IMG/VR virus record: IMGVR_UViG_3300036668_000346
Location: 1 to 33,393 of that record
DNA from: a virus
DNA length: 33,393 nt
Direction: 5' to 3' (one strand)
Each line of letters starts with the position of its first letter. The first letter of the stretch is position 1. A program made the translations under genes and the position numbers. Shown here piece by piece: positions 2,301 to 29,055 of this stretch. The notes under the pieces were generated by a model. It had not been told where the DNA came from. It was given only the letters and a program-made list of their open reading frames with translations, and ran no database searches.

Positions 2301-2539
2301 TTCTGCTCCGCAGGTTGGTTCATAAACGCAGTCAGACCTTTTGCTAAGTAGTCCGCTTGCGCATAATTTAGGCATACATAATAATCTTGTTGGGTAGACG
2401 CCCAAGAGGGGAACTTACAGATATAGCCGTTGCCTGTGTTGGTTACTTTGCACAGTGTCCCCCCAGCGCTGGTGTAGGAGGCGTTGGACTTGATCTTCAG
2501 TACGTTGCCTTTAATCTTGATGGTTTCAAAGTTCTTCAT
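2297..2539 (-). CDS. Hypothetical 80-residue protein
   Basis: It begins MKNFETIKIKGNVLKIKSNA and is predicted to be mostly beta-strand at the N-terminus, with a helical end around YAQADYLAKGLTAFM. GAGAGG lies seven bases before the ATG. The stop overlaps the next start as ATGA. It contains two Cys-x-x... positions but no metal-binding motif. No family is recognised. The intergenic stretch just upstream may carry a promoter. Confidence 0.6.
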   Translation of the reverse strand: MKNFETIKIKGNVLKIKSNASYTSAGGTLCKVTNTGNGYICKFPSWASTQQDYYVCLNYAQADYLAKGLTAFMNQPAEQK

Positions 2540-2617
2540 GTTTCATCCTCTCATGTTTATATTTTAGGTTTTTGTGTACATGTCACAATAACGTGTACCT
2601 TTTTAGGTGTTTTGTGT
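2540..2617 (-). promoter_or_regulatory. Candidate promoter/operator region
   Basis: This 78-base gap is one of few spaces in the early cluster. On the minus strand it holds TTGTGA, 18 bases, then AAATAT ahead of the 2297-2539 gene, a possible weak sigma-70 promoter. It also holds an imperfect inverted repeat GTACACG...CATGTAC (about 2583-2596) that could be an operator. Only suggestive. Confidence 0.3.
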
Positions 2618-2998
2618 TCATGTGTTCTTCTCCTTAAGTTTTCCCTCAATTAGTTTTACTAAATCGCGCACTGTTGCTGTACCACTTTCTGGCAAATTAA
2701 GATTGTTAATCTCATCATCTGTTAGCCCGACCCATTCACGCTTCAGTGGTGCGGTATAAAGTTCAACGCCGCCTTCTGGGTAAGACCCTTTTGGGTAAAC
2801 TAAAATATGGCTATAGTCATCTGAAATAAATCCTTGCAGATCAGTGCTGTCAACCGACCCGAAAGGTTCTTGGGCTTTTTCGGGTTCATAATCAAGTCCT
2901 ACTTCTCTTGCGTTCACAGACATCTTTTCTAATGTCTGGTCTACTGTCAGCCCATCTGGTCGGTACGCCATGTCGTCTGGATTCCACGGTTCGTTCAT
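2618..2998 (-). CDS. Phage protein with WVGLT motif, copy 1
   Basis: A 126-residue protein of a type common in phages, with a conserved core VELYTAPLKREWVGLTDDEI followed by a variable linker and a C-terminal helix LVKLIEGKLKEKNT. The 95-residue protein at 3070-3357 shares this core (FTAQPKRKWVCLTNDE, ending AKIKAKNT) and the N-terminal MNEP. Even the ribosome-binding site and first codons match (AGGAGTAAATAATGAACGAA). They are therefore tandem paralogues. The function is not known; the extra 30 N-terminal residues (DDMAYRPDGLTVDQTLEKMS) are specific to this copy. Confidence 0.65.
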   Translation of the reverse strand: MNEPWNPDDMAYRPDGLTVDQTLEKMSVNAREVGLDYEPEKAQEPFGSVDSTDLQGFISDDYSHILVYPKGSYPEGGVELYTAPLKREWVGLTDDEINNLNLPESGTATVRDLVKLIEGKLKEKNT

Positions 2999-3001
2999 TA
3001 T

Positions 3002-3073
3002 TTACTCCTTTCGTGTATACAGCGGTGCGTCAAAGTGCGCGAATACGAATGCGGTTAGTACTAATATGCTCAT
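3002..3073 (-). CDS. Possible 23-residue hydrophobic peptide
   Basis: It reads MSILVLTAFVFAHFDAPLYT and ends RKE. The ATG overlaps the previous stop as ATGA, and its last codons AAG GAG TAA supply the Shine-Dalgarno of the following gene at 2998. That arrangement, and a hydrophobic first half that could insert in a membrane, suggest a real translationally coupled micro-protein. It is very short, so it could also be chance. Confidence 0.35.
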   Translation of the reverse strand: MSILVLTAFVFAHFDAPLYTRKE

Positions 3074-3357
3074 GTGTTTTTTGCCTTAATTTTTGCTTCA
3101 AGAGCACAAGCGATTTGTTCCACGTCACCCCTATAATATTCGCCTCCCAAATTTGGCATCAACGTGTCTATAGCTTCATTTTTTTCATCATTTGTTAAAC
3201 ACACCCATTTGCGCTTTGGTTGGGCTGTAAACAAAGGCACGTCACCAGATGAAGGGTAAAGCCCAAGGCTAGTATTCCACTCTGTCGCCCCGTCTTGTTT
3301 AACTGCCAGCATATAACCAAGCTCTCTATCTTTTATAAAAGCTACTGGTTCGTTCAT
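3070..3357 (-). CDS. Phage protein with WVGLT-like motif, copy 2
   Basis: A 95-residue protein that begins MNEPVAFIKDRELGYMLAVK and holds VPLFTAQPKRKWVCLTNDEK in the middle; the C-terminal helix ends ALEAKIKAKNT. It is a shorter paralogue of the 126-residue product of 2618-2998. The N-terminal part resembles the version of this family in which a short beta segment precedes the FTAxPKR core. Its Shine-Dalgarno (AAGGAG) lies in the last codons of the preceding gene, so translation is probably coupled. The function is unknown. Confidence 0.65.
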   Translation of the reverse strand: MNEPVAFIKDRELGYMLAVKQDGATEWNTSLGLYPSSGDVPLFTAQPKRKWVCLTNDEKNEAIDTLMPNLGGEYYRGDVEQIACALEAKIKAKNT

Positions 3358-3360
3358 TAT

Positions 3361-3576
3361 TTACTCCTTAAAACGTTTTCTAATTTCATCGGCGCACCAG
3401 GTCGCTAAGACATCTTCACCAGCATAATCTTTATCAATTTCGTAGCAAATATCTATGCACTCTTTAACAATCAACTCAGCAAATCGTTCCAATTCTTTGC
3501 CGTCAGTCACCACATACATCTCGTCAAACTTAGGAAACCCTGCCTCAAGAATTAACTCTTTTATTCGTTTGTTCAT
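3361..3576 (-). CDS. Conserved small phage protein (MNxRIKEL...FAELIVKEC type)
   Basis: A 71-residue, mostly helical protein: MNKRIKELILEAGFPKFDEM, then LERFAELIVKECIDICYEID and a final helix ending EIRKRFKE. Small proteins with the pattern N-x-R-I-K-x-L and F-A-E-L-I-V-x-E-C are frequent in the early or accessory regions of phages of Gram-negative bacteria, with no known role. The start overlaps the preceding stop as ATGA; the last codons give the ribosome-binding site of the next gene. Confidence 0.7.
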   Translation of the reverse strand: MNKRIKELILEAGFPKFDEMYVVTDGKELERFAELIVKECIDICYEIDKDYAGEDVLATWCADEIRKRFKE

Positions 3577-3755
3577 TTGTTTTCTCTTGGTGGTTCGGTT
3601 GGCTTTTTGCCTATCGCGTAACTCAAATTAGGGCAGGAAAGCACTTCTTCTATGTAAGACGATGACCAAGTTTTTGAGTCTGTTAACCAAACCCAAATAC
3701 ACTGGTCGGTATCCTCAAGCCATTGCTTAATAACTTCTGCTTGTGGGTGTTTCAT
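3573..3755 (-). CDS. Small protein related to the IKQW-domain family, copy 2
   Basis: A 60-residue protein starting MKHPQAEVIKQWLEDTDQCI. The beginning aligns with the product of 3752-4042 (HKHAELIKQWADGAEIQFYF), and a Trp follows in both after a similar distance (DSKTW versus NKEDW). It ends in a short basic, Pro-rich tail (KKPTEPPRENK). It overlaps both neighbours by four bases. It is probably a diverged, shortened duplicate of its neighbour, without known activity. Confidence 0.6.
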   Translation of the reverse strand: MKHPQAEVIKQWLEDTDQCIWVWLTDSKTWSSSYIEEVLSCPNLSYAIGKKPTEPPRENK

Positions 3756-4042
3756 ATCTCAAACTCCTTGGCTGACAATTCAATTGCTTCGATTTTGAAA
3801 AACTTAAATTTATCCATCGCTTCTTCGTATGTGTAGTGGTCGCTAGTCATGTCAACGTAATCCCCTTGCACGAGTGCGTACTTGTGCTTAGTAACGATCT
3901 TAGGTTTGACTCGATACTTTGTGCCTTTGTGCCATTGGGGGGACTCAACGTAACGCCAATCTTCTTTGTTTTCAAAATAAAACTGAATTTCAGCACCGTC
4001 AGCCCATTGCTTAATTAGTTCTGCGTGTTTATGTGGTTCCAT
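3752..4042 (-). CDS. Phage protein with IKxWADGAEIQ domain
   Basis: With the start at 4042 it has 96 residues and begins MEPHKHAELIKQWADGAEIQ. AGGAGA lies six bases before this ATG, which makes it better than the ATG at 4060 that overlaps the previous gene. The N-terminal half follows a pattern very common in phages: H-A-x-x-I-K-x-W-A-D-G-A-E-I-Q, a Trp, a P-x-W pair, and YRVKPK. The C-terminal half (KHKYALVQGDYVDMTSDHYT) is specific. The function is unknown. Confidence 0.7.
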   Translation of the reverse strand: MEPHKHAELIKQWADGAEIQFYFENKEDWRYVESPQWHKGTKYRVKPKIVTKHKYALVQGDYVDMTSDHYTYEEAMDKFKFFKIEAIELSAKEFEI

Positions 4043-4052
4043 CTTCTTTCTC

Positions 4053-4232
4053 CTAGTCATTATCGCAATATGTTTCAGGCACTACCTCGTATGTAACGTC
4101 ATATATTTCTCCTTCGCTGAGCACTTCCCAGTCAACACTTTCTAACTGATCTTCTAAATCATCATCATCTTGAGCGATGATGTACGTCTCTATCTGTTGG
4201 GTGACGTAACCCCTAACTAAGTACTGTTTCAT
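4053..4232 (-). CDS. Acidic 59-residue hypothetical protein
   Basis: It begins MKQYLVRGYVTQQIETYIIA and is very acidic after residue 20 (QDDDDLEDQLES, ending ETYCDND). The start at 4232 has GGGGG four bases upstream and overlaps the stop of the gene before it as ATGA, so it is preferred over an in-frame start at 4262. Small acidic phage proteins can act as DNA mimics that block host nucleases or regulators, but that is only a possibility here. Confidence 0.6.
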   Translation of the reverse strand: MKQYLVRGYVTQQIETYIIAQDDDDLEDQLESVDWEVLSEGEIYDVTYEVVPETYCDND

Positions 4233-4387
4233 AATGCCCCCAAAGACTTGTAGTACGCCCACTTGTCAAGATAAACTTGTTGCTCGGACGGCGGTACAAA
4301 GCCCAGGCGCCTGAGTGTCGCCATAACGTCTGTTTTAACAGCAGGTACGTAAACTTTATGGTCTTTTTCATAGGTAAGGATGTCCAT
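4229..4387 (-). CDS. Short 52-residue hypothetical protein
   Basis: It reads MDILTYEKDHKVYVPAVKTD and continues with a short helix (VMATLRRLGFVPP) and a Tyr/Trp-containing end. GGAGA stands eight bases before the ATG, and the stop overlaps the next start as ATGA, so the coding call is firm although the protein is short. No family is recognised. Confidence 0.65.
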   Translation of the reverse strand: MDILTYEKDHKVYVPAVKTDVMATLRRLGFVPPSEQQVYLDKWAYYKSLGAL

Positions 4388-4445
4388 CTTCTTTCTCCGT
4401 GTATAAGTGATTCATTAAGCTATGTAATGCGCCTTTTATGGCTCA

Positions 4446-4598
4446 TTAAACGCAAGTCGTGGTGCAGTTGCCCCCATAACAGCATGTTGTGCACATGATG
4501 ACTTTTCCGTCAGGCGTCACAACAGTGTTAGTCAGGCACGCTGCATAGGCTGCGGTGGTGGCTACGGTTAAGGCAATTGCGATAAGGTACTTTTTCAT
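4446..4598 (-). CDS. Small Cys-rich exported peptide
   Basis: A 50-residue protein: MKKYLIAIALTVATTAAYAA is a typical Sec signal peptide, followed by CLTNTVVTPDGKVIMC and a Cys-rich end (CTTCCYGGNCTTTCV), six cysteines in all. GGAGA lies upstream at good spacing. Signal peptidase I could cut after AYA; the Cys directly after could also be lipidated, although YAAC is not a standard lipobox. The mature 30-residue peptide could form disulphides in the periplasm. Its role is unknown; a superinfection or envelope function made early in infection is conceivable. Confidence 0.65.
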   Translation of the reverse strand: MKKYLIAIALTVATTAAYAACLTNTVVTPDGKVIMCTTCCYGGNCTTTCV

Positions 4599-4639
4599 CT
4601 TTCTTCTCCAGTATGTGGGTACTACGGTTAGGTACTACG

Positions 4640-4855
4640 TTAAAAAACTCGGTCGTGTATTTCATCTTCTAGGTTAATAATTTCAGACTCTGATAGTGCA
4701 CTTAAAACATTTACTTTTCTTGACTTATTGGCTTTGTTAGTACCAAGTAAAACGTAAACAGCGGTAATGTCTATCTGGGTAGGTAAATCCCCATCGGCGG
4801 GCAAGATGTCGTACTTGACGTGCACATCTAGGTTTAGTTGAGTGGACTCAATCAT
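4640..4855 (-). CDS. Hypothetical 71-residue protein
   Basis: It begins MIESTQLNLDVHVKYDILPA, with alternating strands (DITAVYVLLGT) followed by a C-terminal helix (LSESEIINLEDEIHDRVF). Small phage proteins with an N-terminal beta sheet and a final S-x-x-E-I-x-x-L-E-x-x-I helix are known as conserved unknowns. The start overlaps the previous stop as ATGA, so it is translated with the regulator-like gene before it. Confidence 0.6.
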   Translation of the reverse strand: MIESTQLNLDVHVKYDILPADGDLPTQIDITAVYVLLGTNKANKSRKVNVLSALSESEIINLEDEIHDRVF

Positions 4856-5184
4856 GTTTTGCTCGCATTGGCTTGTTCTATGTCACTAAAGTCAGGCACT
4901 TTCATCGCTGTTGAGCTACCTTTGCGGGGACGCCCAACTTTTCTTTTTTGAATAAGTGGGGCAACGACTTCTTTTTGCCCAAACACTTCCCTAAAGTCAC
5001 GCTCGATGGCCAACATTGCAACATTACCTATCGGCATCTTGTAATGGTTGGCGAGTTCTCGAGCCATGGTCAGGAATTCTGACCTTATAACCACCGCTCC
5101 CCAATTCCCGTATGCTTCATTATGACTCGGGGTTCTTTTCCCTTTGACTCTGAGCTTTGGGTAGTATTTTTGGTTCTGAAGCAT
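4852..5184 (-). CDS. AT-hook / possible ribbon-helix-helix protein, first gene of early operon
   Basis: A 110-residue basic protein. KRKVGRPRKG around residues 80-89 is a classical AT-hook (core GRPRKG), which binds the minor groove of AT-rich DNA. Residues 30-70 (AVVIRSEFLTMARELANHYK, then NVAMLAIERDF) have a short strand and two helices and could be a ribbon-helix-helix or similar domain; this part is less sure. It is the first gene behind the TATAAT at 5218-5223, and AAGGA precedes the ATG by eight bases. A first-gene DNA-binding protein next to an AT-rich promoter suggests regulation of that promoter. Confidence 0.6.
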   Translation of the reverse strand: MLQNQKYYPKLRVKGKRTPSHNEAYGNWGAVVIRSEFLTMARELANHYKMPIGNVAMLAIERDFREVFGQKEVVAPLIQKRKVGRPRKGSSTAMKVPDFSDIEQANASKT

Positions 5185-5260
5185 TTGTATATCCTTTATT
5201 TAAAGGCTTAATTGTGTATTATATTCTTTGTCGATAAAAGAGATATTAAACCAATTAAAC
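5185..5260 (-). promoter_or_regulatory. Leftward early promoter
   Basis: The minus strand has a perfect -10 hexamer TATAAT (5218-5223) and an AT-rich upstream region; the -35 is poor (no TTGACA at 16-18 bases). It lies between the terminator of the polymerase operon and the first small early gene, with about 35 bases of leader. The weak -35 could mean an activator or phage sigma-like factor is used. Confidence 0.55.
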
Positions 5261-5291
5261 AAAAAAATACCTAGGGGTTTTCCCTAGGTAT
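5261..5291 (-). terminator. Rho-independent terminator of the replication operon
   Basis: ATACCTAGGG (5267-5276) and CCCTAGGTAT (5282-5291) form a perfect 10-bp stem with a 5-base loop. On the minus strand the stem is followed by at least six T (5261-5266). It lies 19 bases beyond the polymerase stop, so it ends the primase-helicase-polymerase transcript. Confidence 0.85.
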
Positions 5292-5310: not shown

Positions 5311-7185
5311 TTATTTTGCGTCGCCCCAAGAGGATCCAATTTCCACGTCTACGCGAGACGGCACCTCCAACTGTACAGCGTCGCACATGATCCGCGCTGC
5401 TTGCTCCGCCTCCTCTCGGTTGTTTACACTGACGGCTAGTTCGTCATGCACCTGCAGGAGCACGCGAAAGCCTGCTTTGTCGAGCGCAATCATTGCCGAT
5501 TTGGTTTGGTCTGCTGCAGAGCCTTGGATCAGTTTGTTCAGCCCTTTGTAAGTCATCGCGCGCTTGATCCGCGGACCGTATTCCACCATGGCTTGTTCGT
5601 ATGGAAGCGCCTTGTTAATGCCCCATGTCGTTGGCTCCCAAAGCGGGAAGCGACACTTACGCCCCATGAGTGTACGGATGCTGCCTGCGGAGGCTGGGTG
5701 CTCGATTCGGCGCATAACGGCATCAATTAAACCACGCAAGAAAGGAACTTTTGCATGAAATGTTTTTAACAATTCGCCTGCTTCATCAACGTCTAATTCA
5801 AGCTGTGAAGCAATCTTATTTTTTCCTGCCCCATACAGGATGGACAAGCCAAGTGTCTTCGCTTGTTTACGCCCAATGCCTGCCATGTCAGCAACCATCT
5901 GGTGAAAGTCAGTGTTTGGGTCGTTTTTATAGGCATCCACCACCTTCTCAGCGCCAGGCAAGTTCAGTAGGCTTGCATAATGGATCAAGATCCGTGGTTC
6001 TTGGCTCGAGAAGTCATTTGCTGCCCACAACTGCCCTTCTTCTGGTAAGAATAGCCCACGCACCAATGGCCCGATAATCTCGTGACGTGAAGGCACCTGC
6101 TGCAAATTCGGAGAATTCATACTGAGGCGTCCTGTGACCGTGCCTCCATTGTCTGAGCGCAGTTGATTGACGTGGGGATGTATGCGCCCATCTTTTTCAG
6201 AAAAGTCAAGGTAGGGCTGTAGGAACGTGCCGTGGGTCTTGTTTAGTTCTCTTGATTCCACAATCATTTTTGACAATGGGTGTGGATTGGTGTCAAGAAA
6301 AGATTTTGTAAAGCTTGGGAGCCCTGTGGTGGATCTTGGGTAAGCGATCTTAAGTTTGTCAAAGGCAAGAGAGATACTCGCTGCAGCCCAAATGTCTATG
6401 TGCATACCGCACGTCTTTTTAATTTCAAGCAAAAGCGCCTCTTCGCGCTTCTTCATTTCTTTGATGTGCCTGTACGCTTTCTCACGATCAAAGAGAATGC
6501 CTTGATGGGTGAGCTTAATGAGCACAGGTAAGAGGTTTGTCTCGAGCTCAAAGATTGACTCGACTTCGTCTTTGCGTAATAAGATTTTAAAGTGTTGCCA
6601 AAGCTTTAGAGTCAGCGCTGCGTCTTGTTCTGCGTAGTCACCAACAAACATCGCGGGCAACTTCCACATGTCCTTTTTTGGGTGCACACCAAAGTCTGCA
6701 GCAGCCTCTTTTAAGCCCTGCTCTGACTTGACTTCCTTTAAGTAATCAAAACCCAAACTGTTCAAGGCGTAAGAAAAACGGTTCTCATCTAAAACAGCTG
6801 CAGCAAGCATTGTGTCAACCACACGCCCGTTGATCTTAAATCCTTGAGCCGTGAGCCATCCGCAATCATAGGAGGCATTGTGCATCACTTTGTCAGCAGT
6901 CGTATCCAGTACTTTTTGTATGTACTTCTCTACAATGCGCTTATCAAGGTTTCCGCCCCCTTGGTGTGCCACGGGGTAGTAGCCCTTCCATCCGTCTACT
7001 GCAATGGCGTAGCCAACGATGTAGCCATCTTTGCGAGGCCAGCCTGGACCAAAGTGCTCCATATTCGGGTCGCAGGTCTCCAAGTCAATTGCAATCTCGT
7101 TAGCCTCAGATAGATCTGGAAAATTCTGTGGTGGTATCCACTCTGAGCCACGAGGAAATAGGGATATTGTTTTATTATTTTTCAA
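5311..7185 (-). CDS. Family A DNA polymerase with 3'-5' exonuclease
   Basis: A 624-residue replicative polymerase of T7/Pol I type. The exonuclease domain shows IAIDLETCDP (D34, E36), MHNASYDCGW (D107) and GDYAEQDAALT (Y184, D188). The polymerase domain shows TGRLSMNSPNLQQVP (351-365), motif A NDFSSQEPRIL (D391, E396), the O-helix RKQAKTLGLSILYG (R439, K443, L447, Y451) and motif C LQVHDELAV (H580, D581, E582). No 5'-3' exonuclease domain is present. The residue equivalent to E. coli Phe762 is Leu447, a variant known mainly from environmental phages and linked there to slower or temperate life styles. The start is TTG at 7185, overlapping the helicase stop (TTGA), with AAAAGG upstream. Confidence 0.95.
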   Translation of the reverse strand: MKNNKTISLFPRGSEWIPPQNFPDLSEANEIAIDLETCDPNMEHFGPGWPRKDGYIVGYAIAVDGWKGYYPVAHQGGGNLDKRIVEKYIQKVLDTTADKVMHNASYDCGWLTAQGFKINGRVVDTMLAAAVLDENRFSYALNSLGFDYLKEVKSEQGLKEAAADFGVHPKKDMWKLPAMFVGDYAEQDAALTLKLWQHFKILLRKDEVESIFELETNLLPVLIKLTHQGILFDREKAYRHIKEMKKREEALLLEIKKTCGMHIDIWAAASISLAFDKLKIAYPRSTTGLPSFTKSFLDTNPHPLSKMIVESRELNKTHGTFLQPYLDFSEKDGRIHPHVNQLRSDNGGTVTGRLSMNSPNLQQVPSRHEIIGPLVRGLFLPEEGQLWAANDFSSQEPRILIHYASLLNLPGAEKVVDAYKNDPNTDFHQMVADMAGIGRKQAKTLGLSILYGAGKNKIASQLELDVDEAGELLKTFHAKVPFLRGLIDAVMRRIEHPASAGSIRTLMGRKCRFPLWEPTTWGINKALPYEQAMVEYGPRIKRAMTYKGLNKLIQGSAADQTKSAMIALDKAGFRVLLQVHDELAVSVNNREEAEQAARIMCDAVQLEVPSRVDVEIGSSWGDAK

Positions 7186-8582
7186 AGTCTGAAGCCTTTT
7201 TGTTCGTTTTTAGGAAGCACTAAGTGCAGCGATTCGCGAGCCCTGGTCAACCCTACATAAAACAAGCGATGTATATCGTCTGCGTTGCGGTCGTACTCTC
7301 GTGCAAACTTAGCGGACAAATCCGTGAGTAGCAATACGTTATCCGCTTCCCCTCCTTTTGCACCGTGGATCGTGGACAGTTTGACATGAATTTTACCCGT
7401 GAGCCGCGTACCGCGACGCAAGAGCGCAACCAAGTAATCACGTTTGTCTTCACCAATCTTGGTTAACGCTTCATGCCAAATAGCATCGGTTGTCAGCCCG
7501 TGGTTTTCCTGTAGTGATTTTAGAGTGTACATGCACTCAGGATCAGCGCTTGATAGGGTTTTGTATCCCCGTTTGATACAATTAGAGCCGAGGTACTTAT
7601 AGATCTGTTTGACCACAGAGAAGGGGACTTCTTTACCCTTTCGAATCGCTTCCCATCCGAGCACCGCGGTCAGGATGGTATCTGAAACGCTTTTTTGACC
7701 GTTTCTTTCAAACAAAATCCCTTGTGATTTGAGCCAGTAATACATCTCGTTGAGCATATAGTTTGTGGCTGCCATGATGAGCCACTCGCCCTTGCTGACA
7801 TCTACCTGTGAGAAGTGGTTGTAGTACTGTACGGTGCCTTGTGTGTCACGTGGCTTCCAAGTCTTTGGTTGTCTTACACGGATGCGCTTTACCACATTGT
7901 TGGCAAGTGCGTGTATTTTTGCAGGCACCCTGTATGATTGATCAAGGACTTTGATTTCTCCTGACAAGTTGAGAAAACTATCCACATCTGCGCCACAAAA
8001 CTTGTACGAAGCCTGGTCATCATCCCCTGCCACATAAACATGATTGCATCTCTTTGCTAACTCGTACACTAAGTTCCATTGTATTCGAGAAAGGTCTTGT
8101 GCTTCATCGACGATCACGGTTTCAAGATTAGGTAACCTGTGTGGCTCTTCCAACAAGCGCTCAAGCAAATCAGTGAAGTCCATAAGACCTTTTGATTGCT
8201 TGTAGTGTCGATAGCAACGCTCAACGAATTCAAAGTGAAACCACTCAATTGTCAAGCTACTACGATTGTAGTAAGTACGCAGGTCTTCGCCTCTGATACG
8301 TGCGATGTTTATCTCATTCAAGATGGGGTGATCTGCACGGACAATATACTCCTCGTCTGTTGTATCAATACTAAGATCAATGCCCGCTTCTTTTGCGAAT
8401 GCGTTGTAATCCTCGGCAGTCATCATGTCCTTTGTACCAATACCCAGACAGCGATAAGCCAAGCTGTGTAGCGTTCTGTACCACGGGAAGTCAACCTCTG
8501 AGTTAAGATCAGGAAACTTAGCCACTGCACGTTCTTTCGCCTCAGACGCTGCTTTGCGGGTAAAGGAAAAGTAGCCAATCAT
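7182..8582 (-). CDS. UvrD/PcrA-like SF1 helicase, body without its P-loop
   Basis: This 466-residue frame holds all SF1A motifs except motif I: FSFTRKAASEA (5-15, Ia), VIVDEAQDLS (156-165, II), VAGDDDQASY (184-193, III), DQSYRVP (IV region), LSTIHGAKGGEADNV (about 403-417, V) and LFYVGLTRAR (440-449, VI). The missing Walker A lies just upstream at 8583-8715 but in a broken frame: the same-frame reading gives RNPGSGKTTYLLN with no usable start codon, while the other frame gives KVFGPP and stops. Deleting seven bases (8653-8659) would join both into a 508-residue helicase. As it stands the product starting at 8582 could not bind ATP normally. It lies between primase and polymerase and should unwind the fork or act in recombination. 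Confidence 0.85.
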   Translation of the reverse strand: MIGYFSFTRKAASEAKERAVAKFPDLNSEVDFPWYRTLHSLAYRCLGIGTKDMMTAEDYNAFAKEAGIDLSIDTTDEEYIVRADHPILNEINIARIRGEDLRTYYNRSSLTIEWFHFEFVERCYRHYKQSKGLMDFTDLLERLLEEPHRLPNLETVIVDEAQDLSRIQWNLVYELAKRCNHVYVAGDDDQASYKFCGADVDSFLNLSGEIKVLDQSYRVPAKIHALANNVVKRIRVRQPKTWKPRDTQGTVQYYNHFSQVDVSKGEWLIMAATNYMLNEMYYWLKSQGILFERNGQKSVSDTILTAVLGWEAIRKGKEVPFSVVKQIYKYLGSNCIKRGYKTLSSADPECMYTLKSLQENHGLTTDAIWHEALTKIGEDKRDYLVALLRRGTRLTGKIHVKLSTIHGAKGGEADNVLLLTDLSAKFAREYDRNADDIHRLFYVGLTRARESLHLVLPKNEQKGFRL

Positions 8583-8715
8583 TGACGGATGAATGCCCCG
8601 CTCAAGCTCTGTTTGTGCGATGTTGAGTAGGTAGGTTGTTTTGCCAGAACCAGGATTACGGCGGGCCGAAGACTTTTTGTATCTTCGACCCTGACTCCTT
8701 ATGTAAGTTATCCAT
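8583..8715 (-). pseudogene. Displaced N-terminus of the UvrD-like helicase
   Basis: The ATG at 8715 opens MDNLHKESGSKIQKVFGPP and then meets TAA (8656-8658). Right after it, one base out of frame, comes GSGKTTYLLNIAQTELERG, which runs into the helicase body at 8582. Family members have KxFGPPGTGKT here. Removing GGATTAC (8653-8659 on the plus strand) gives GPPGSGKTT and one open frame of 509 codons. The start overlaps the preceding gene by eight bases, like other joints in this operon. This is either a real frameshift, a programmed one, or an assembly error. Confidence 0.7.
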
Positions 8716-8983
8716 GTTTTAAGTACCAGTCTTCTATCTCACCTAACCCAGCAGGCCACAAGATAATAGGGGTACCTACGCCCATGTACTTCTCTATGAC
8801 TTCTTCCACTAAATACACTCTAGCGTCTGGGTCAGTGAAATTAAAAGTAGAGACTAATATCTCCACCATTTTTTCCCCATCATAGATAAGCCTCTCCACT
8901 GGGTCTTCATTGTTCCATGCTAACCCGACACCGACTACAGCTGTGTCAAATCCTTCGAACTTGATGAATGGGTAGTTTAAAAT
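8708..8983 (-). CDS. Conserved 91-residue phage protein, copy 2, apparent ATT start
   Basis: The frame from 8983 reads (ATT)LNYPFIKFEGFDTAVVGVG and continues with LIYDGEKMVEIL and GVGTPIILWPAGLGE. It aligns by eye along its length with the 91-residue product of 2025-2300. AGGAGGT stands five bases before the ATT at 8983, and the gene then overlaps the primase stop by seven bases. The first ordinary start, GTG at 8899, would give only 63 residues, cut off the conserved GFDxxVVGV strand and has no ribosome-binding site. I therefore favour the ATT start. The function is unknown; it lies between primase and helicase. Confidence 0.65.
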   Translation of the reverse strand: MLNYPFIKFEGFDTAVVGVGLAWNNEDPVERLIYDGEKMVEILVSTFNFTDPDARVYLVEEVIEKYMGVGTPIILWPAGLGEIEDWYLKHG

Positions 8984-10506
8984 GGTACACCTCCTTCATT
9001 GTCTGGTGTGTCAAACGGTGCGTCTTGCTTTTCAAACAGAGGAAGGCGCCATGTCCGCGTTGCGCGTCCCTTGAGAAATAGACTCGATGGCTCCCCACCC
9101 ATATCTCTTAAGCGCTGTGCCATTTTTGGGGCACTAAGACTTAGAAAATTGTTGCGCCTAAGAAAAGGTTCAATGTCCTTGATGCGAAAGTAAACCTTAC
9201 CTTCTTCCTCGCATGTCCAAGGGCGCCCCAAGAGTATCTCATCGCGGTCCATGGCTTGCTGTAAGTGAGTGCAGAACTCTTCCATCAGATCAGCGAACCG
9301 ACCGCTAATGCTCGTGTCCTCAGTGGCTTCAACGATGTGCTCAAGCTCCACCATTTCACGTAGCAAGGCGTTCAATAATCCTTCCCAATCTTGTCTACGT
9401 AGTGTGGGTGGCAACATATTAACTTTTTCAACGCACGCTTTTTGAAAAGCGATCTGATTAAATAAGCTATCTGTTTCAAGCTCCACACGTTTGCCGTTAA
9501 TGTCCATGAACCACAAAGGCGGTTCACTGTTGTACTTTGACAAAGAGCTCATCTGAGGTGTGTCAGCCGAGTCCGCACCGATACCAAACTTGCGTGAACG
9601 GCATAGCCCTGAGTTGCAAAACGAGTTTATAGGTGCGTCTTTGCATTTGTATTTATAGTCTTTTTTCTGTAATTGTTTTGAGATGATTTGTATCTCACCC
9701 ATGCCCAGGGGTGGGTCAAAATACTTCATGTTGTACTCAAGCATCTTGTCTTCCCAATTCGTGCCTTCAGCTCGCTTGAGGTAGATGCCAATATTAAATA
9801 AACCGTTATTTCGTGTGCCCTCTGGAAACCCTTGTGAACAAAGGGCTTGCAGGCATGGTGGACCATCTTTTATTGGGTTTTCTGCTTGCTTGGGTTCTTC
9901 TGGAAAAGCCAGAGGAGGCGTCTGCACGTATTTCTCATGCAAAGCATAGAACTGTTCAAGCGTGGCAGAGGTGCCATCATCGTTGATACCGTAGCGCAAA
10001 CCATCGTCCCCGCCGAAGTAAGGCAGGTTAAGAAAGTTTCCCGTGTCGCCACGATCTACAAGGATTTCTGTTTGCTTAGGGAATATCTCTCGTCCTGATT
10101 CGCCTAAAAGAGCTGCAACAGCCTTTAGATAACGTTGCATATCGGCAGCAGGCACAGGCTCAGATGTAAACAAAAAGACGTGCGCGCCTCCTGATTTGCT
10201 TCTACATACAACCAAAGGAAGCGCAAGCTTTCTGACTTTTAAGATAAGCCCCGCAAGATCGAGCGGGTATTGGTCAATGTCTACACAACCCCATATGCAA
10301 GAGTTGTCTGCTCGAATAGGGATGATACCAAGGCTTGGCTCAACACCTTCGAGGTGCTTGACCCACAGTTCGTCTGTAGGGGGCTTACGTATAACCATCG
10401 CCTTGCCCGCTTGTTTGCCACTATCCTTGGCGCGTTCGATGCGATAAGTTCCATAAGCAATATCTAAACCTTGGAAAATTGCTTTAAATCGTGTGATGTC
10501 AGTCAT
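8977..10506 (-). CDS. Archaeo-eukaryotic-type primase (primase-polymerase)
   Basis: A 509-residue protein. The N-terminal AEP core shows VDIDQYP (catalytic D76 and D78), CRSKSGGAHVFLF (101-113, with H109 of the sxH motif) and EILVDRGDTGNFLNLPYF (147-164). The middle (about 225-290) is helical and resembles the PriCT-type region (GTRNNGLFNIGIYLKRAEG). Then comes a Cys-rich stretch (KCKDAPINSFCNSGLCRSRK, about 295-314) that may bind zinc. No helicase motif is present, so the separate helicases must unwind. The C-terminus is acidic and ends DNEGGVPF, like an SSB tail. A terminator lies directly upstream of its ribosome-binding site. Confidence 0.85.
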   Translation of the reverse strand: MTDITRFKAIFQGLDIAYGTYRIERAKDSGKQAGKAMVIRKPPTDELWVKHLEGVEPSLGIIPIRADNSCIWGCVDIDQYPLDLAGLILKVRKLALPLVVCRSKSGGAHVFLFTSEPVPAADMQRYLKAVAALLGESGREIFPKQTEILVDRGDTGNFLNLPYFGGDDGLRYGINDDGTSATLEQFYALHEKYVQTPPLAFPEEPKQAENPIKDGPPCLQALCSQGFPEGTRNNGLFNIGIYLKRAEGTNWEDKMLEYNMKYFDPPLGMGEIQIISKQLQKKDYKYKCKDAPINSFCNSGLCRSRKFGIGADSADTPQMSSLSKYNSEPPLWFMDINGKRVELETDSLFNQIAFQKACVEKVNMLPPTLRRQDWEGLLNALLREMVELEHIVEATEDTSISGRFADLMEEFCTHLQQAMDRDEILLGRPWTCEEEGKVYFRIKDIEPFLRRNNFLSLSAPKMAQRLRDMGGEPSSLFLKGRATRTWRLPLFEKQDAPFDTPDNEGGVPF

Positions 10507-22146: not shown

Positions 22147-24786
22147 TTAACCAAATAACTTTTGAGCGCCAGCCGCGGCTGACAGACCAGAAATACCTAA
22201 GCCAACGGCCTGAGTAAGCGGGCTAGTGCTAGGCGCTGTTTGAGCAGATAACGTCATCTGACTCGATGGTGCACCTTTGTAGATATCAGACAAGAAGCCT
22301 AACTGCTGGTAAGGCGACATGGTCTGCTGGAGTTGCGTGGCGCGTTGTGCTTCTAAGCGTTGCTGTTCAGCTTGTTGCTCAAGACCGCCTAACTGTGAAA
22401 GCATACTAACGTCTGCCATACCCATCTGTTGATTTGCTTGACCCAGCGCAGCTTGTTGCACGCCAAGTTGACCAATTGTAGAGCCTAACTGACCGATGCC
22501 CATACCAGTTTGGTAATCCACGCCTGCACGTTGTGCACCAAGAGCGCCAATACCTTGACCAAGAGAGCCATAGAGCTGTGCGCCTTGACCCGCGATGTTT
22601 GCTTGTTGTGAGGCGATCTGTGCGGGCAGTAAACCCATCTGTGCTTGTTGCGAGCCCAACTGACCTTGTAGTTGTGCGCCTGCTTGCCCCAATTGAGTTT
22701 GTTGAGTGGCTTGTTGACCAAGAGTTGAACCAATACCTGCCAACTGATTTGCGCCTGCAAGACCAAGCTGTGCGCCTTGAGCAGTTATGCCACCTAATGC
22801 TTGACCAGCTTGCACGCCTAACGAACCTTGCTGCGCAGCTAACTGAGCAGCCTGTTGTTGCAATTGCGCTTGTTGCGCTGTGGTGCCTGTTTGCAATTGC
22901 GCAGCTTGACCATACTGCTGGGCTGCTTGTTGTCCTAAGCCTGCTTGAGTTGCAGCTTGCTGACCATATAAGCTTCCAATCCCTGAGTACAACTGAGACT
23001 GCTGAGCTGCTTGTTGTTGCTGAGTTTGTTGGAGCTGAGCCATTTGCATGGCTGTAGCCGAATCAAACCCGGCTTCTTGAAACTGCTGTTGCGCTGCGGC
23101 AAGACCCAATTGACCTTGCTGACCTGCAACGGATGTCTGCAGTTGCCCTGCTTGAGCAAGTTGCTGTGCAGCTTGTTGTCCGAGACCTGCTTGCTGACCT
23201 GCAATGTTTGCTTGCAGACCCGCTTGGTTGGCTAACATCTGAGCGCCTTGCTGTTGCAAACCTGCTTGTTGCGAGGCAGCGCCAAGTTGACCCTGCCCTG
23301 CTGCTTGCAACATCTGCCCTGCTTGCTGCCCGAGACCTGCTTGGGTAGCGGCTAATTGACCAAATTGGGAGCCAATTGCACCAATGCCTTGCCCTGCTGC
23401 TTGTTGACGTTGTTGCTGTGCTTCAAATGCTTGTTGCGCTGTTTGTTGAGATTGGTTGTAGCCTGACTGTAACCCGCCCACAATTGCTGCATTGCGTTGT
23501 TCGGAGAGTGCACGCTCAAGCTCTGCTTGTTGAACTCCTTCTCGGGTTCCTCCAAAAGCGCCAGCACGCACGGCTTGTGCAGCGAGGTTCTGTTGTGCAA
23601 TGTCACCTTGACGATTGATTTGTCGAATAGACTCATCAATAACCTGTTGCTGATACGGGTTCATGAACTGCTGTGTTTGGTCAGCACTAAACTGATTAGT
23701 TCCTGCTTGTAGCCCGCCAATACCCCCTGCTAACGCCTGTGATGCTGTTGCAAAACCTGGTTGTTGAGCTGCTTGAGCCGCTTGCCCTGCACCGCCGTAC
23801 AATGCCTGAACGCCTTGTTGAAAGCCTGGTTGCCCCGCAGCTTGCATTCCTGCCTGAGCAGCCTGCATACCTGTTTGTTGTGCTTGTTGAAAGCCTGGTT
23901 GTGCTGCGGCTAACTGTGCTTGCTGGGCAGCAGTCATAGCGGTTTGCACGCCTTGACCAAAACCTGCTTGAGTAGCTGCTTGTTGCGCAGCTTGTGTAGC
24001 ACCTCCAGCCGTGCCCATCGCATCGCCTAATATCTGACCTGATAAGCCAAAGTTAGATGGACCTGCCTGTCCTGCTGCTTGTTGCGCTTGGGCAAAAGAA
24101 CCTGTGGCTTGTTGGAAGCCCGGCTGTTGCGCTGCTTGTTGTGATTGCAATGCTGCCTGATAACCCGACCCAATGCCTTGTCCAAAACCCGCCATTCCAG
24201 GCGCTTGAGACGCCATTCCAATAGCCTGTTGCCCTGAAGCTAATCCTGCGCCAATTGCTGCATTCGCAGGATTAAATTGAGGGTTGACCGCTGCGGTGCG
24301 TTGTGCAGCGGTTTGTAAGAGTGCTTGAGAAGGGGCTAAATTAGCCTGTGTAAACTGCCCTGCGGTGTTTACCCCTTGTGCAAGAGTCTGTGCTCCAGCG
24401 CCTACTTGGTCATACCCCATGCCTGCAGCTTCTGCATAGGCAGGAAGTTGCCCTGTAGTAGTAAGACCTGCCTGCATTGCATTTTGAGCTGCCGTAAACT
24501 CGGGGTTTACGTTTATCCCCGCCAAGCCTCGAGCGCCTGTTTGAGCAAGATTTTGACCCTGCGCAACACCCATCCCTGCTGCATCTAAGTAAGGCTGGTA
24601 AGACCCCAAGCCACTTTGCGCGAGCTGTGCTGCTTGCTGCTGTGTAGGGGATAACCCTGCTGTTTGATAAGCAGGTAGGTTCATAGGCATTTGTGACTGT
24701 TCTTTAGCAGCCTTAAGCAACCCTAACTTATATGCTTCAATGTCTGGCGCTTCCCGTACCGTTTGTTCGACGTATTCAGTTGCCAT
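22147..24786 (-). CDS. Gln/Ala/Gly-rich repetitive virion protein
   Basis: An 879-residue protein starting MATEYVEQTVREAPDIEAYK, an N-terminus typical of a late protein group in environmental phages. About two thirds of the residues are Gln, Ala or Gly. The first half holds four QPGF(Q/A) units. Around residues 380-440 is the most protein-like part: FMNPYQQQVIDESIRQINRQ followed by RAGAFGGTREGVQQAE, a pattern I know from these phages. After that come 25-residue repeats (QQAGLGQQAAQQLAQAGQLQ...). It should form long, flexible or fibrous helical structure, perhaps an injected or internal scaffold. The 5' end overlaps the previous stop by one base (TAATG). Confidence 0.65.
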   Translation of the reverse strand: MATEYVEQTVREAPDIEAYKLGLLKAAKEQSQMPMNLPAYQTAGLSPTQQQAAQLAQSGLGSYQPYLDAAGMGVAQGQNLAQTGARGLAGINVNPEFTAAQNAMQAGLTTTGQLPAYAEAAGMGYDQVGAGAQTLAQGVNTAGQFTQANLAPSQALLQTAAQRTAAVNPQFNPANAAIGAGLASGQQAIGMASQAPGMAGFGQGIGSGYQAALQSQQAAQQPGFQQATGSFAQAQQAAGQAGPSNFGLSGQILGDAMGTAGGATQAAQQAATQAGFGQGVQTAMTAAQQAQLAAAQPGFQQAQQTGMQAAQAGMQAAGQPGFQQGVQALYGGAGQAAQAAQQPGFATASQALAGGIGGLQAGTNQFSADQTQQFMNPYQQQVIDESIRQINRQGDIAQQNLAAQAVRAGAFGGTREGVQQAELERALSEQRNAAIVGGLQSGYNQSQQTAQQAFEAQQQRQQAAGQGIGAIGSQFGQLAATQAGLGQQAGQMLQAAGQGQLGAASQQAGLQQQGAQMLANQAGLQANIAGQQAGLGQQAAQQLAQAGQLQTSVAGQQGQLGLAAAQQQFQEAGFDSATAMQMAQLQQTQQQQAAQQSQLYSGIGSLYGQQAATQAGLGQQAAQQYGQAAQLQTGTTAQQAQLQQQAAQLAAQQGSLGVQAGQALGGITAQGAQLGLAGANQLAGIGSTLGQQATQQTQLGQAGAQLQGQLGSQQAQMGLLPAQIASQQANIAGQGAQLYGSLGQGIGALGAQRAGVDYQTGMGIGQLGSTIGQLGVQQAALGQANQQMGMADVSMLSQLGGLEQQAEQQRLEAQRATQLQQTMSPYQQLGFLSDIYKGAPSSQMTLSAQTAPSTSPLTQAVGLGISGLSAAAGAQKLFG

Positions 24787-27268: not shown

Positions 27269-28423
27269 CTATTGTTGAAATTGTGTGACTTCTATTACCA
27301 CAGCAGGCGCAACAGGTGCAAAGGCTGTAGCAGGTACGTTATTTATTGTCACGTTTGTACTGTCGGCAGCATAGACTAACTCGACATATCCGTTTGCGGC
27401 TAATGATACGGCTTCGTTTAGAAAAAGGGTGGTGTACGCATTATTTGTGCTTACTGTGACGATACGAGCAGAGAATGGGATGTCTGTCCCATTCTTCCTA
27501 AACCAAACCCAAATATTCTTGTCCGCCGCTGATCCACTAATAAACTGTAATGTAGCTACAAACTGATAACGCCCTGACTGGGGTACAACTATTCTTGATG
27601 CGGGAGTTCCTAAAACTACACCGTTACCGTCTCTTGTTACACCAAAAACAATAGGGTATGCGGTATTTGCTGCTACGGGGCTAGTATCTGTTTCTAATGC
27701 AAAGACGCCGTAGTATTGCATTTGAGTGATTGTCGGGCGTACAAAAATAACACCTACTGTGGCGTCTGAAATAACACAAGCGGCAAGCGGTATGACGTTA
27801 TCAGGCGCAGTAGGCTTTACTTTAGTTAGCCCCCCTGCAACGGTTGGTGAAGCATATAAAAGGTCACCCTGAGTAAACGCGCTTGTGTCAAGCCCTCGCA
27901 CAAAACCAAACGTTGTGCAGTACCCTTTTTCTCCAGAGTCAGGTAATTCATGAGTCATGACCCCTAAAATATAAAGACTAGGTTGTGTACCGTCAGCCAA
28001 GTAAGGCGCAACTAAAAGTGCGTTAGGCGTAGCACCTGCAAATCCTACTACTGTGCCGTTAGGTATTGTGACACCAGTTGTATTGCCAACACGGGCATAC
28101 TGCTCTTGCCCAATTTGTTGCGTAACGCCATAATCCATACCTAAGTCAAGCGTTTGGTCAGTGCCGTTCCATCCTAGTCTTGCTGTTTGAGTGGCATAAG
28201 AAGCGTTGGTATTAAAGTCAATATACTCATACAAAAGTTCTGGTGTAGCGCCGTTCCCGGCCCAGTTGTTTGCATCGGCAATGTTATTGGTTGCAATCGG
28301 TGTATAGGATGTGTTTAATTGCAACACAATCTGCTCTAAGGAGCGCACGAGCTGGTCAAACGGCTCAGGGCTATACTGCACAGGGGCTGCATTTGGAAGA
28401 CGTACATTGAGTATCTTGCTCAT
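27269..28423 (-). CDS. Tail fibre-type protein with C-terminal jelly-roll-like domain
   Basis: A 384-residue protein. The N-terminal 45 residues are helical (PEPFDQLVRSLEQIVLQLNT) and may attach or trimerise. Residues 105-230 form a conserved shaft-like domain: YARVGNTTGVTIPNGTVVGF, SLYILGVMTHELPDSGEKG, FGFVRGLDTSAFTQGDLLYA, ending VGVIFVRPT. Residues 238-384 look like a C1q/TNF-type beta sandwich (YGVFALETDTSPVAANTAYP and GRYQFVATLQF), which often binds receptors. It is probably a tail fibre or spike. The start overlaps the homing endonuclease stop as ATGA, so expression depends on coupling to an inserted gene. Confidence 0.65.
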   Translation of the reverse strand: MSKILNVRLPNAAPVQYSPEPFDQLVRSLEQIVLQLNTSYTPIATNNIADANNWAGNGATPELLYEYIDFNTNASYATQTARLGWNGTDQTLDLGMDYGVTQQIGQEQYARVGNTTGVTIPNGTVVGFAGATPNALLVAPYLADGTQPSLYILGVMTHELPDSGEKGYCTTFGFVRGLDTSAFTQGDLLYASPTVAGGLTKVKPTAPDNVIPLAACVISDATVGVIFVRPTITQMQYYGVFALETDTSPVAANTAYPIVFGVTRDGNGVVLGTPASRIVVPQSGRYQFVATLQFISGSAADKNIWVWFRKNGTDIPFSARIVTVSTNNAYTTLFLNEAVSLAANGYVELVYAADSTNVTINNVPATAFAPVAPAVVIEVTQFQQ

Positions 28424-29055
28424 AAATTATTGCCCCAATACCTTTTCTCTAAGTTTTTCCTTGCTTCAACCGCTTCCCCCAGAGATGAATAAAAAGGGGA
28501 GTAACAGCGCTTGCTATTGTTGGTTATGTTTGCTATCCATTTGTTTTCTTTAGCAAGATAGGATACCCCTTTGTGCCCTGTTTTGTTAGGTCGATCTCTC
28601 CTGTTGACTGCCTGAACATGGTAAGATGCCCAACGGCAGTTCTCCTTTGTGTAGCCTTTGTTATTATCAATCCTGTCAAGGGTTTCTTCTCCTACTGGCT
28701 CACCCATAGCTACCTCAAAGTTGACATACTCAAGCCATTCCTCGCAAACAGTAATCCCTCGTGCCCCATAACGAAAGTAGTCTTTGTCCTCTGTATTACG
28801 GCACCGTCGTATCATTGCTCGCCAAGTATTGTAGGAGGACTTATAGCAGCCCCCATGTCTGATAATAGTTTCTTTATGTAAACAACCACAAGATTTTGTT
28901 CGCCCTGTAGCTAATTGTCCAGAAGTTACTACTGTTTTTTTACCGCACTCACACGCACATTCCCATAAACGTTTTTTGCTCTTTCCAACGCCCGCATCCG
29001 CAGTAACAAATAGTCTACCGTAAGTTAACCCTATCCTATTTATAAACTTACCCAT
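28420..29055 (-). CDS. HNH homing endonuclease with AP2 domain
   Basis: A 211-residue protein. It begins with a NUMOD-like start (MGKFINRIGLTYGRLFVTAD) and a zinc-binding type stretch with four Cys (WECACECG and SCGCLH). The HNH core contains RHGGCYKSSYNTWRAMIRRC, then EETLDRIDNNKGYTKENCRW. The C-terminal TGHKGVSYLAKENKWIANIT and the rest form an AP2-type DNA-binding domain. Such genes are selfish and move into sites without them. It lies between two tail genes, with nine bases upstream and an ATGA overlap downstream, and it is AT-richer than its neighbours. No intron remnant is visible. Confidence 0.9.
   Translation of the reverse strand: MGKFINRIGLTYGRLFVTADAGVGKSKKRLWECACECGKKTVVTSGQLATGRTKSCGCLHKETIIRHGGCYKSSYNTWRAMIRRCRNTEDKDYFRYGARGITVCEEWLEYVNFEVAMGEPVGEETLDRIDNNKGYTKENCRWASYHVQAVNRRDRPNKTGHKGVSYLAKENKWIANITNNSKRCYSPFYSSLGEAVEARKNLEKRYWGNNL

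Follow-up and report, generated by a model that had tools for sequence, protein, structure and literature searches.

Phage UvrD-like helicases interrupted in the P-loop probably regain it by a programmed ribosomal stop-hop

In a 33,393-base virus record (IMG/VR IMGVR_UViG_3300036668_000346; this whole stretch of DNA is hereafter called the window), the gene for a UvrD-like helicase is broken within its P-loop, which raises the question of how a helicase could be translated across the break. The first-pass annotation of this DNA had assigned the break to the plus-strand heptamer GGATTAC (8653-8659), and the sequence confirms this assignment; the same position is broken in 39 distinct helicases. 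The gene lies on the minus strand. Its ATG (8715-8713), which overlaps the stop of a preceding small gene, opens an upstream frame, MDNLHKESGSKIQKVFGPP followed by a stop (8656-8715), that constitutes the N-terminal segment of the helicase. The main helicase frame resumes beyond the break with GSGKTTYLLN and extends over 489 amino acids (7182-8651) without an internal stop; read one base over, the frame NPGSGKTTYLLN (PGSGKTTYLLN...) is open as far as 7182. Taking out the heptamer joins 19 and 489 residues into one uninterrupted helicase of 508 residues, as had also been stated. The downstream part is a UvrD/Rep helicase: it matches the Pfam families UvrD-helicase (PF00580, 1.7e-28) and UvrD_C (PF13361, 2.8e-10) as well as PHROG 1967, DNA helicase (3e-67), and the presence of both the N- and the C-terminal UvrD domain places it in the SF1 UvrD/Rep group.

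The anatomy of the interruption, all on the minus strand, is as follows. A Shine-Dalgarno (SD)-like AAGGAG (8695-8700) lies 3 nt 5′ of a hairpin with the arms GGGTCGAAGAT (8681-8691) and GTCTTCGGCCC (8663-8673), the latter being the native coding sequence for KVFGP and ending 1 nt before the codon CCG (8659-8661). This CCG, the second Pro codon of GPP, is termed the take-off codon here. It is followed directly by the stop codon TAA (8656-8658), which ends the short upstream frame, and by one extra gap base, T (8655), which by sequence comparison makes the insert 7 nt long where 6 nt is usual. The landing codon CCT (8652-8654) then adjoins the resume codon GGT (8649-8651). We consider it very probable that a compact signal for programmed translational bypass, a ‘stop-hop’, is present in the helicase mRNA. 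The ribosome would read MDNL...KVFGPP and reach the stop with tRNA-Pro in its P site, where the slow release expected at Pro-Pro-stop would cause a stall; the peptidyl-tRNA would leave CCG, pass over UAAU and re-pair with CCU, and translation would pick up at GGU, giving the exact native P-loop GPPGSGKTT.

A simpler thought is that the seven bases are a sequencing or assembly error, as had been suggested at first; the contig is metagenome-derived, and one of its close kin (L050) has a helicase with several further indels. These extra indels look like read errors, decay of that copy being the alternative. The chance of an error in the window is, however, negligible, since the same seven bases occur in L050 and in a second close relative (L001), making three contigs from separate records, and cognate inserts occur in many other viruses. 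Such recurrence in relatives had been named in advance as support for recoding. The idea that the change is very recent fares no better. L001 is 97.4% identical to the window across 8.7 kb, and between the two helicases 15 codons have changed synonymously and 2 nonsynonymously (dN/dS 0.03); recent decay is thus ruled out, as L001 keeps the insert at 2.6% divergence with its helicase under purifying selection. Between carriers of the element in general, dN/dS is 0.03-0.30 in the pairs for which it was computable. On these comparisons, the seven-base insertion in the P-loop is genuine, occurs repeatedly and is under selection, and it is neither an assembly error nor recent decay. An intron or intein at the insert site was likewise ruled out, given an insert of only 6-8 nt and no Rfam family, intron or other catalytic RNA, at gathering score in the window. 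A search of the window for tRNA genes found none, and a suppressor or special tRNA supplied by the window was rejected on this ground and because three different stop codons are in use.

Scans of IMG/VR found 39 distinct UvrD-like phage helicase genes interrupted at the same P-loop point, and because one position is hit in so many genes, the break is far beyond chance. This count takes in the window and L001, which form one lineage, and a further close pair (L072 and L083). An IMG/VR search by protein similarity alone yielded 53 loci, of which six had inserts, all of the same stop-hop form; in this unbiased set, L013 and its duplicate L014, L020 and L044 read GPP*LGSGKTT or GPP*PGSGKTT, with the stop at the same place. 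A scan in which the landing codon was left free (GPP, then TRR, any codon and the remaining P-loop) gave 38 stretches, 31 of them distinct, and its 7-nt version recovered only the window lineage. A broader scan, in which the landing codon was fixed, brought the number to 39 and included quite different helicase subfamilies (L095, L097, L098 and L099). The scan pattern itself asked for a stop where the insert begins; it also permitted TGG, never seen in a helicase. In 36 of the 39 genes the insert is 6 nt long and keeps the frame; in L108 it is 8 nt, TGATG plus CCG. The gap is accordingly 3 nt, 4 nt (window) or 5 nt (L108), and in each case the landing codon adjoins GGN. L108 came from variable-gap scans, together with a second candidate variant, L106, while four other hits of these scans (L107, L199, L200 and L201) were rejected as chance matches or intact genes. 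In L106 (3800-3905), the helicase carries a 13-nt insert, TGACGGAAAGACA, with the usual hairpin, and its ACA landing pairs poorly (two of three bases); it is a candidate for either a longer hop or a decayed copy.

The same scan of bacterial and archaeal genomes gave five matches, and because none of them lies in a helicase, the element appears, on this evidence, to be a phage feature. Ten helicase homologues fetched from a collection of isolated phages all have an intact P-loop, and blastn with an element-bearing stretch found no carrier among isolated phages, a point against a hop.

All sites follow one plan, GGN CCN CCN, stop, 0, 1 or 2 nt, CYN and GGN, this last GGN being the first codon of GGN(S/T)GKT. 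A Pro codon, a stop directly after it and a pairable landing codon (CCN or CTN) adjoining the resume codon are thus found in 39 of 39 sites, the arrangement expected of bypassing; in the landing-free scan, the codon was CYN in all 31 distinct sites. Take-off codons are CCG (24), CCA (8) and CCT (7), never CCC; landing codons are CTA (11), CTG (9), CCA (9), CCG (4), CCT (3) and CTT (3). C in the third position is therefore absent at take-off (0/39, p 5e-6 from codon usage) and at landing (0/39, p 7e-6), although in the same helicases CCC accounts for 27% and CTC for 26% of the respective codon families. The preceding Pro codon is CCC in 13 of the 39 genes, and the second Pro codon itself is CCC in 8 of 34 intact relatives (Fisher p 0.001 against 0/39); these p-values are nominal, because related sequences entered the codon and structure statistics as if they were independent. 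A tRNA-Pro(UGG) with a modified U34 pairs with CCN directly and with CUN via a single G-U pair in the middle position. The third-base rule corresponds to the reading range expected of one such tRNA at both take-off and landing, and the codon rules point to re-pairing of the same peptidyl-tRNA, which readthrough would be hard put to explain. Somewhat against a hop, the CTN landings (23/39) need that G-U pair at the middle codon position.

Readthrough of the stop by a near-cognate tRNA would lengthen the P-loop by two residues (X-Leu or X-Pro), and would need a +1 frameshift in addition in the window. It would suit the 36 in-frame inserts of 6 nt, in which, moreover, the stop is followed by C, and C after a stop is a leaky context. 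We nonetheless regard readthrough as unlikely. In the window lineage (7 nt) and in L108 (8 nt), the insert shifts the frame, but the landing codon adjoins GGN just the same, and all three stop codons are used (TAA 16, TGA 14 and TAG 9). Readthrough also leaves the take-off codon bias unexplained, as well as the pyrimidine second base and the missing third-base C of the next codon, and two residues added within the Walker A motif, GxxxxGK[ST], should impair ATP binding. The window is an informative case, since its 7-nt insert could not be rescued by plain readthrough, slippage to CGU would leave the tRNA unpaired and CCU adjoins the resume codon. The first-pass annotation had rightly allowed for bypass of the insertion, and the break does recur; its example of +1 frameshifting at CCG-CCG-TAA with two extra residues is unlikely. 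A +1 frameshift was ruled out because re-pairing of tRNA-Pro from CCG to CGU has two mismatches, where a landing on CCU would allow pairing and yield the exact P-loop, and because relatives with 6-nt and 8-nt inserts do without it on the same take-off, stop and landing plan.

The hairpin is equally regular. Its ~8-14 bp stop 0-2 nt short of the take-off codon. The native codons for KVFGP supply the 3′ arm, and the 5′ arm is additional sequence that intact relatives do not have. In the window, the 5′ arm is part of an N-terminal extension, which the intact relatives inspected also do not have. We scored stems ending at the take-off codon as Watson-Crick pairs minus G-U pairs, in 37 of the 39 sites, L063 and L095 being too truncated. 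A score of at least 7 was reached in 36 of these 37, in none of 34 intact genes (maximum 6) and in 2.4% of shuffles. The stem sequences differ, with A-T/G-C and C-G/T-G exchanges; the arms are, for example, GGGCCAAAGAT and ATCTTTGGCCC in L073, GGCTGAATAT and GTATTCGGCC in L074, and GGCCCCAGGAT and GTCCTGGGGCC in L099. In the window, 11 pairs form the hairpin, and the predicted RNA fold of the region (-25.8 kcal/mol) is 3.6 SD more stable than that of shuffled sequences (z -3.6). In the window sequence itself, a small 3′ stem is also predicted; in T4, a take-off stem-loop holds the stop in the A site. Most hop sites have an SD-like hexamer or pentamer of the AAGGAG type 1-4 nt before the hairpin. 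Measured with the hairpin looped out, the SD is ~2-5 nt from the take-off codon and ~8-11 nt from the landing codon, the latter being the ordinary spacing of SD-dependent initiation. The spacing fits less well in L065, where the hairpin register must be shifted, L074, L088 and L073. In 3.0 Mb of strand sequence, a gene-blind scan for SD, hairpin, codon and stop hit 28 P-loop sites and 6 others, and a shuffled copy gave 1 match; the 6 matches in other genes of the scanned loci are scattered and make no coding sense.

This arrangement suggests that the stimulator would be the hairpin, which immediately precedes the take-off codon and has AAGGAG at its base. Hairpin refolding and SD pairing would draw the mRNA back by 6-8 nt and favour forward movement, because the folded hairpin brings the SD too close to the take-off codon and to an ordinary distance from the landing codon. 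A similar principle operates in the +1 frameshift of prfB, where an SD too near the P-site codon and a stop in the A site go with forward movement, all of which the phage element would share. In contrast to prfB, the closeness of the SD here requires a folded hairpin, the move is non-overlapping (+6, +7 or +8) and +1 re-pairing is impossible at CCG-U. The same spacing might instead speak for termination and re-initiation, with the hairpin-bridged SD starting a separate protein at or near CYN inside the P-loop, as AAGGAG lies ~8 nt from CYN once the hairpin is folded away. This is very unlikely, since none of CCA, CCG, CCT, CTA and CTT is a start codon, the lack of GPP would cost the helicase half of its Walker A loop, and the pairing of take-off and landing codons would go unexplained. 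Two more distant cases lend re-initiation some support. L128 (3390-3520) and L129 (3570-3690), found in an HNH search, have more distant HNH relatives preceding other helicases, with the break after GPPG, one codon later, and an 11-bp hairpin ending at a Gly take-off codon. They are weaker cases because their AGY landing matches tRNA-Gly at two of three bases, and re-initiation would be open to them since an in-frame TTG stands at the resume point. The evidence on bypassing, codons, hairpin, selection and HNH genes is all comparative, and from it we infer the stop-hop itself and its efficiency.

How, then, did the element reach so many helicases? In 15 of 39 carriers, against none of 34 intact relatives (p 2e-5), the gene immediately upstream of the helicase encodes an HNH_3 endonuclease (PF13392), and these proteins can be aligned in their N-terminal region. 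The gene is likewise present in L014, whose duplicate L013 is truncated, and the HNH protein of L108 is a different one, with traces of NUMOD4 and HNH_3. In a helicase tree, hop and intact states are interleaved, with 13 state changes, at least 9 of them forced by starred branches. The hop unit is probably a mobile homing cassette with an HNH endonuclease, given the HNH gene just upstream in many relatives. The endonuclease would cut intact P-loop DNA, its presumed target, the insert would shield the carrier by placing a stop that breaks the highly conserved P-loop at the DNA level, and the hop would make the insert harmless. We did not find an HNH gene next to the helicase in the window; this lineage may have lost it, or only the hop may have moved. 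One could also regard the insert as a mere DNA-level immunity scar against a homing endonuclease in a broken, dispensable helicase, which would agree with the 15 upstream HNH genes and with an insert in the most conserved DNA of the gene. We hold this to be highly improbable, as the carriers are under purifying selection, the insert persists over long divergence, and a scar needs neither hairpin nor codon constraints, both of which are present. It is likely, we believe, that these sites form a widespread natural class of stop-hops with a 3-5 nt gap and a hairpin-bridged SD, which travels with HNH genes and allows these to enter the Walker A motif of phage helicases while the helicase gene survives.

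The closest known system is T4 gene 60 with MobE, which likewise has a stop immediately after take-off, a matched landing codon adjoining the resume codon, a 5′ stem-loop, an SD-like sequence and a neighbouring homing endonuclease (PMC5009743, PMC11194080). Its 5′ stem-loop is thought to pull the mRNA and drive forward movement, and its insert to permit the spread of MobE (PMC5009743, PMC11194080); this precedent supports, by analogy, a 5′ stem-loop motor and a link to homing endonucleases here. The systems differ in the gap (3-5 nt here, 50 in T4), the take-off residue (Pro, but Gly in T4), the hairpin, which here ends at the take-off codon with the SD at its 5′ foot, and the setting, a helicase P-loop with an HNH_3 endonuclease in dozens of genomes as against one phage group. 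The phage helicase element also does without a long nascent-peptide signal of the KKYK type, which T4 gene 60 cannot do without. The upstream peptides have only ~9-25 residues, which might be held against a hop, because a signal of this type could not exist here in equivalent form; the long nascent-peptide signal is a trait of T4 gene 60 and not general to bypassing. Synthetic stop-hops in E. coli share the stop flanked by matched codons, with 9 nt yielding one amino acid, in artificial constructs (PMC5009743), and a 2016 review stated of natural in-frame stop-hopping that “no occurences are known” (PMC5009743). In the mitochondria of Magnusiomyces capitatus, ribosomes also skip short inserts in coding genes, several with imperfect take-off and landing matches, but this concerns yeast mitochondria and 81 sites in many genes, largely independent of context (PMC5009743), whereas the phage element is confined to a single position in one family of genes, where it has its own hairpin and SD.

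In the openly licensed literature, we found no description of this P-loop stop-hop element. Natural examples of programmed bypassing have so far been few, T4 gene 60 and yeast mitochondria being the main ones, and ~39 related natural variants allow rules for codons, gap lengths, hairpin and SD spacing to be derived by comparison. At ~60 nt, the element is short enough for direct transfer into a reporter. More generally, it points to a way in which homing endonucleases could settle in an invariant coding site with neither intron nor intein, and it warns that gene callers will miss or truncate such proteins.

Several further features were observed. The hop helicase of L073 (minus strand, about 2385-5267) has an intein-like insertion in Walker B (PF14890, Intein_splicing, 1e-7, below the curated cut-off), so that two types of invading element share one phage gene; L065, with 823 aa, may resemble it in this. 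Elsewhere in the window, on the minus strand, 8977-10506 encodes a primase with an archaeo-eukaryotic primase domain as in TOTE conflict systems (PF22548, 5e-12; also a PHROG primase). On the same strand, a 211-aa protein (28420-29055) between structural genes, with a weak AP2 match and HNH-like residues, is possibly another homing endonuclease, and an 879-aa protein in the structural gene region (22147-24786) consists almost wholly of Gln/Ala/Gly-rich repeats (GLGQQAAQ...).
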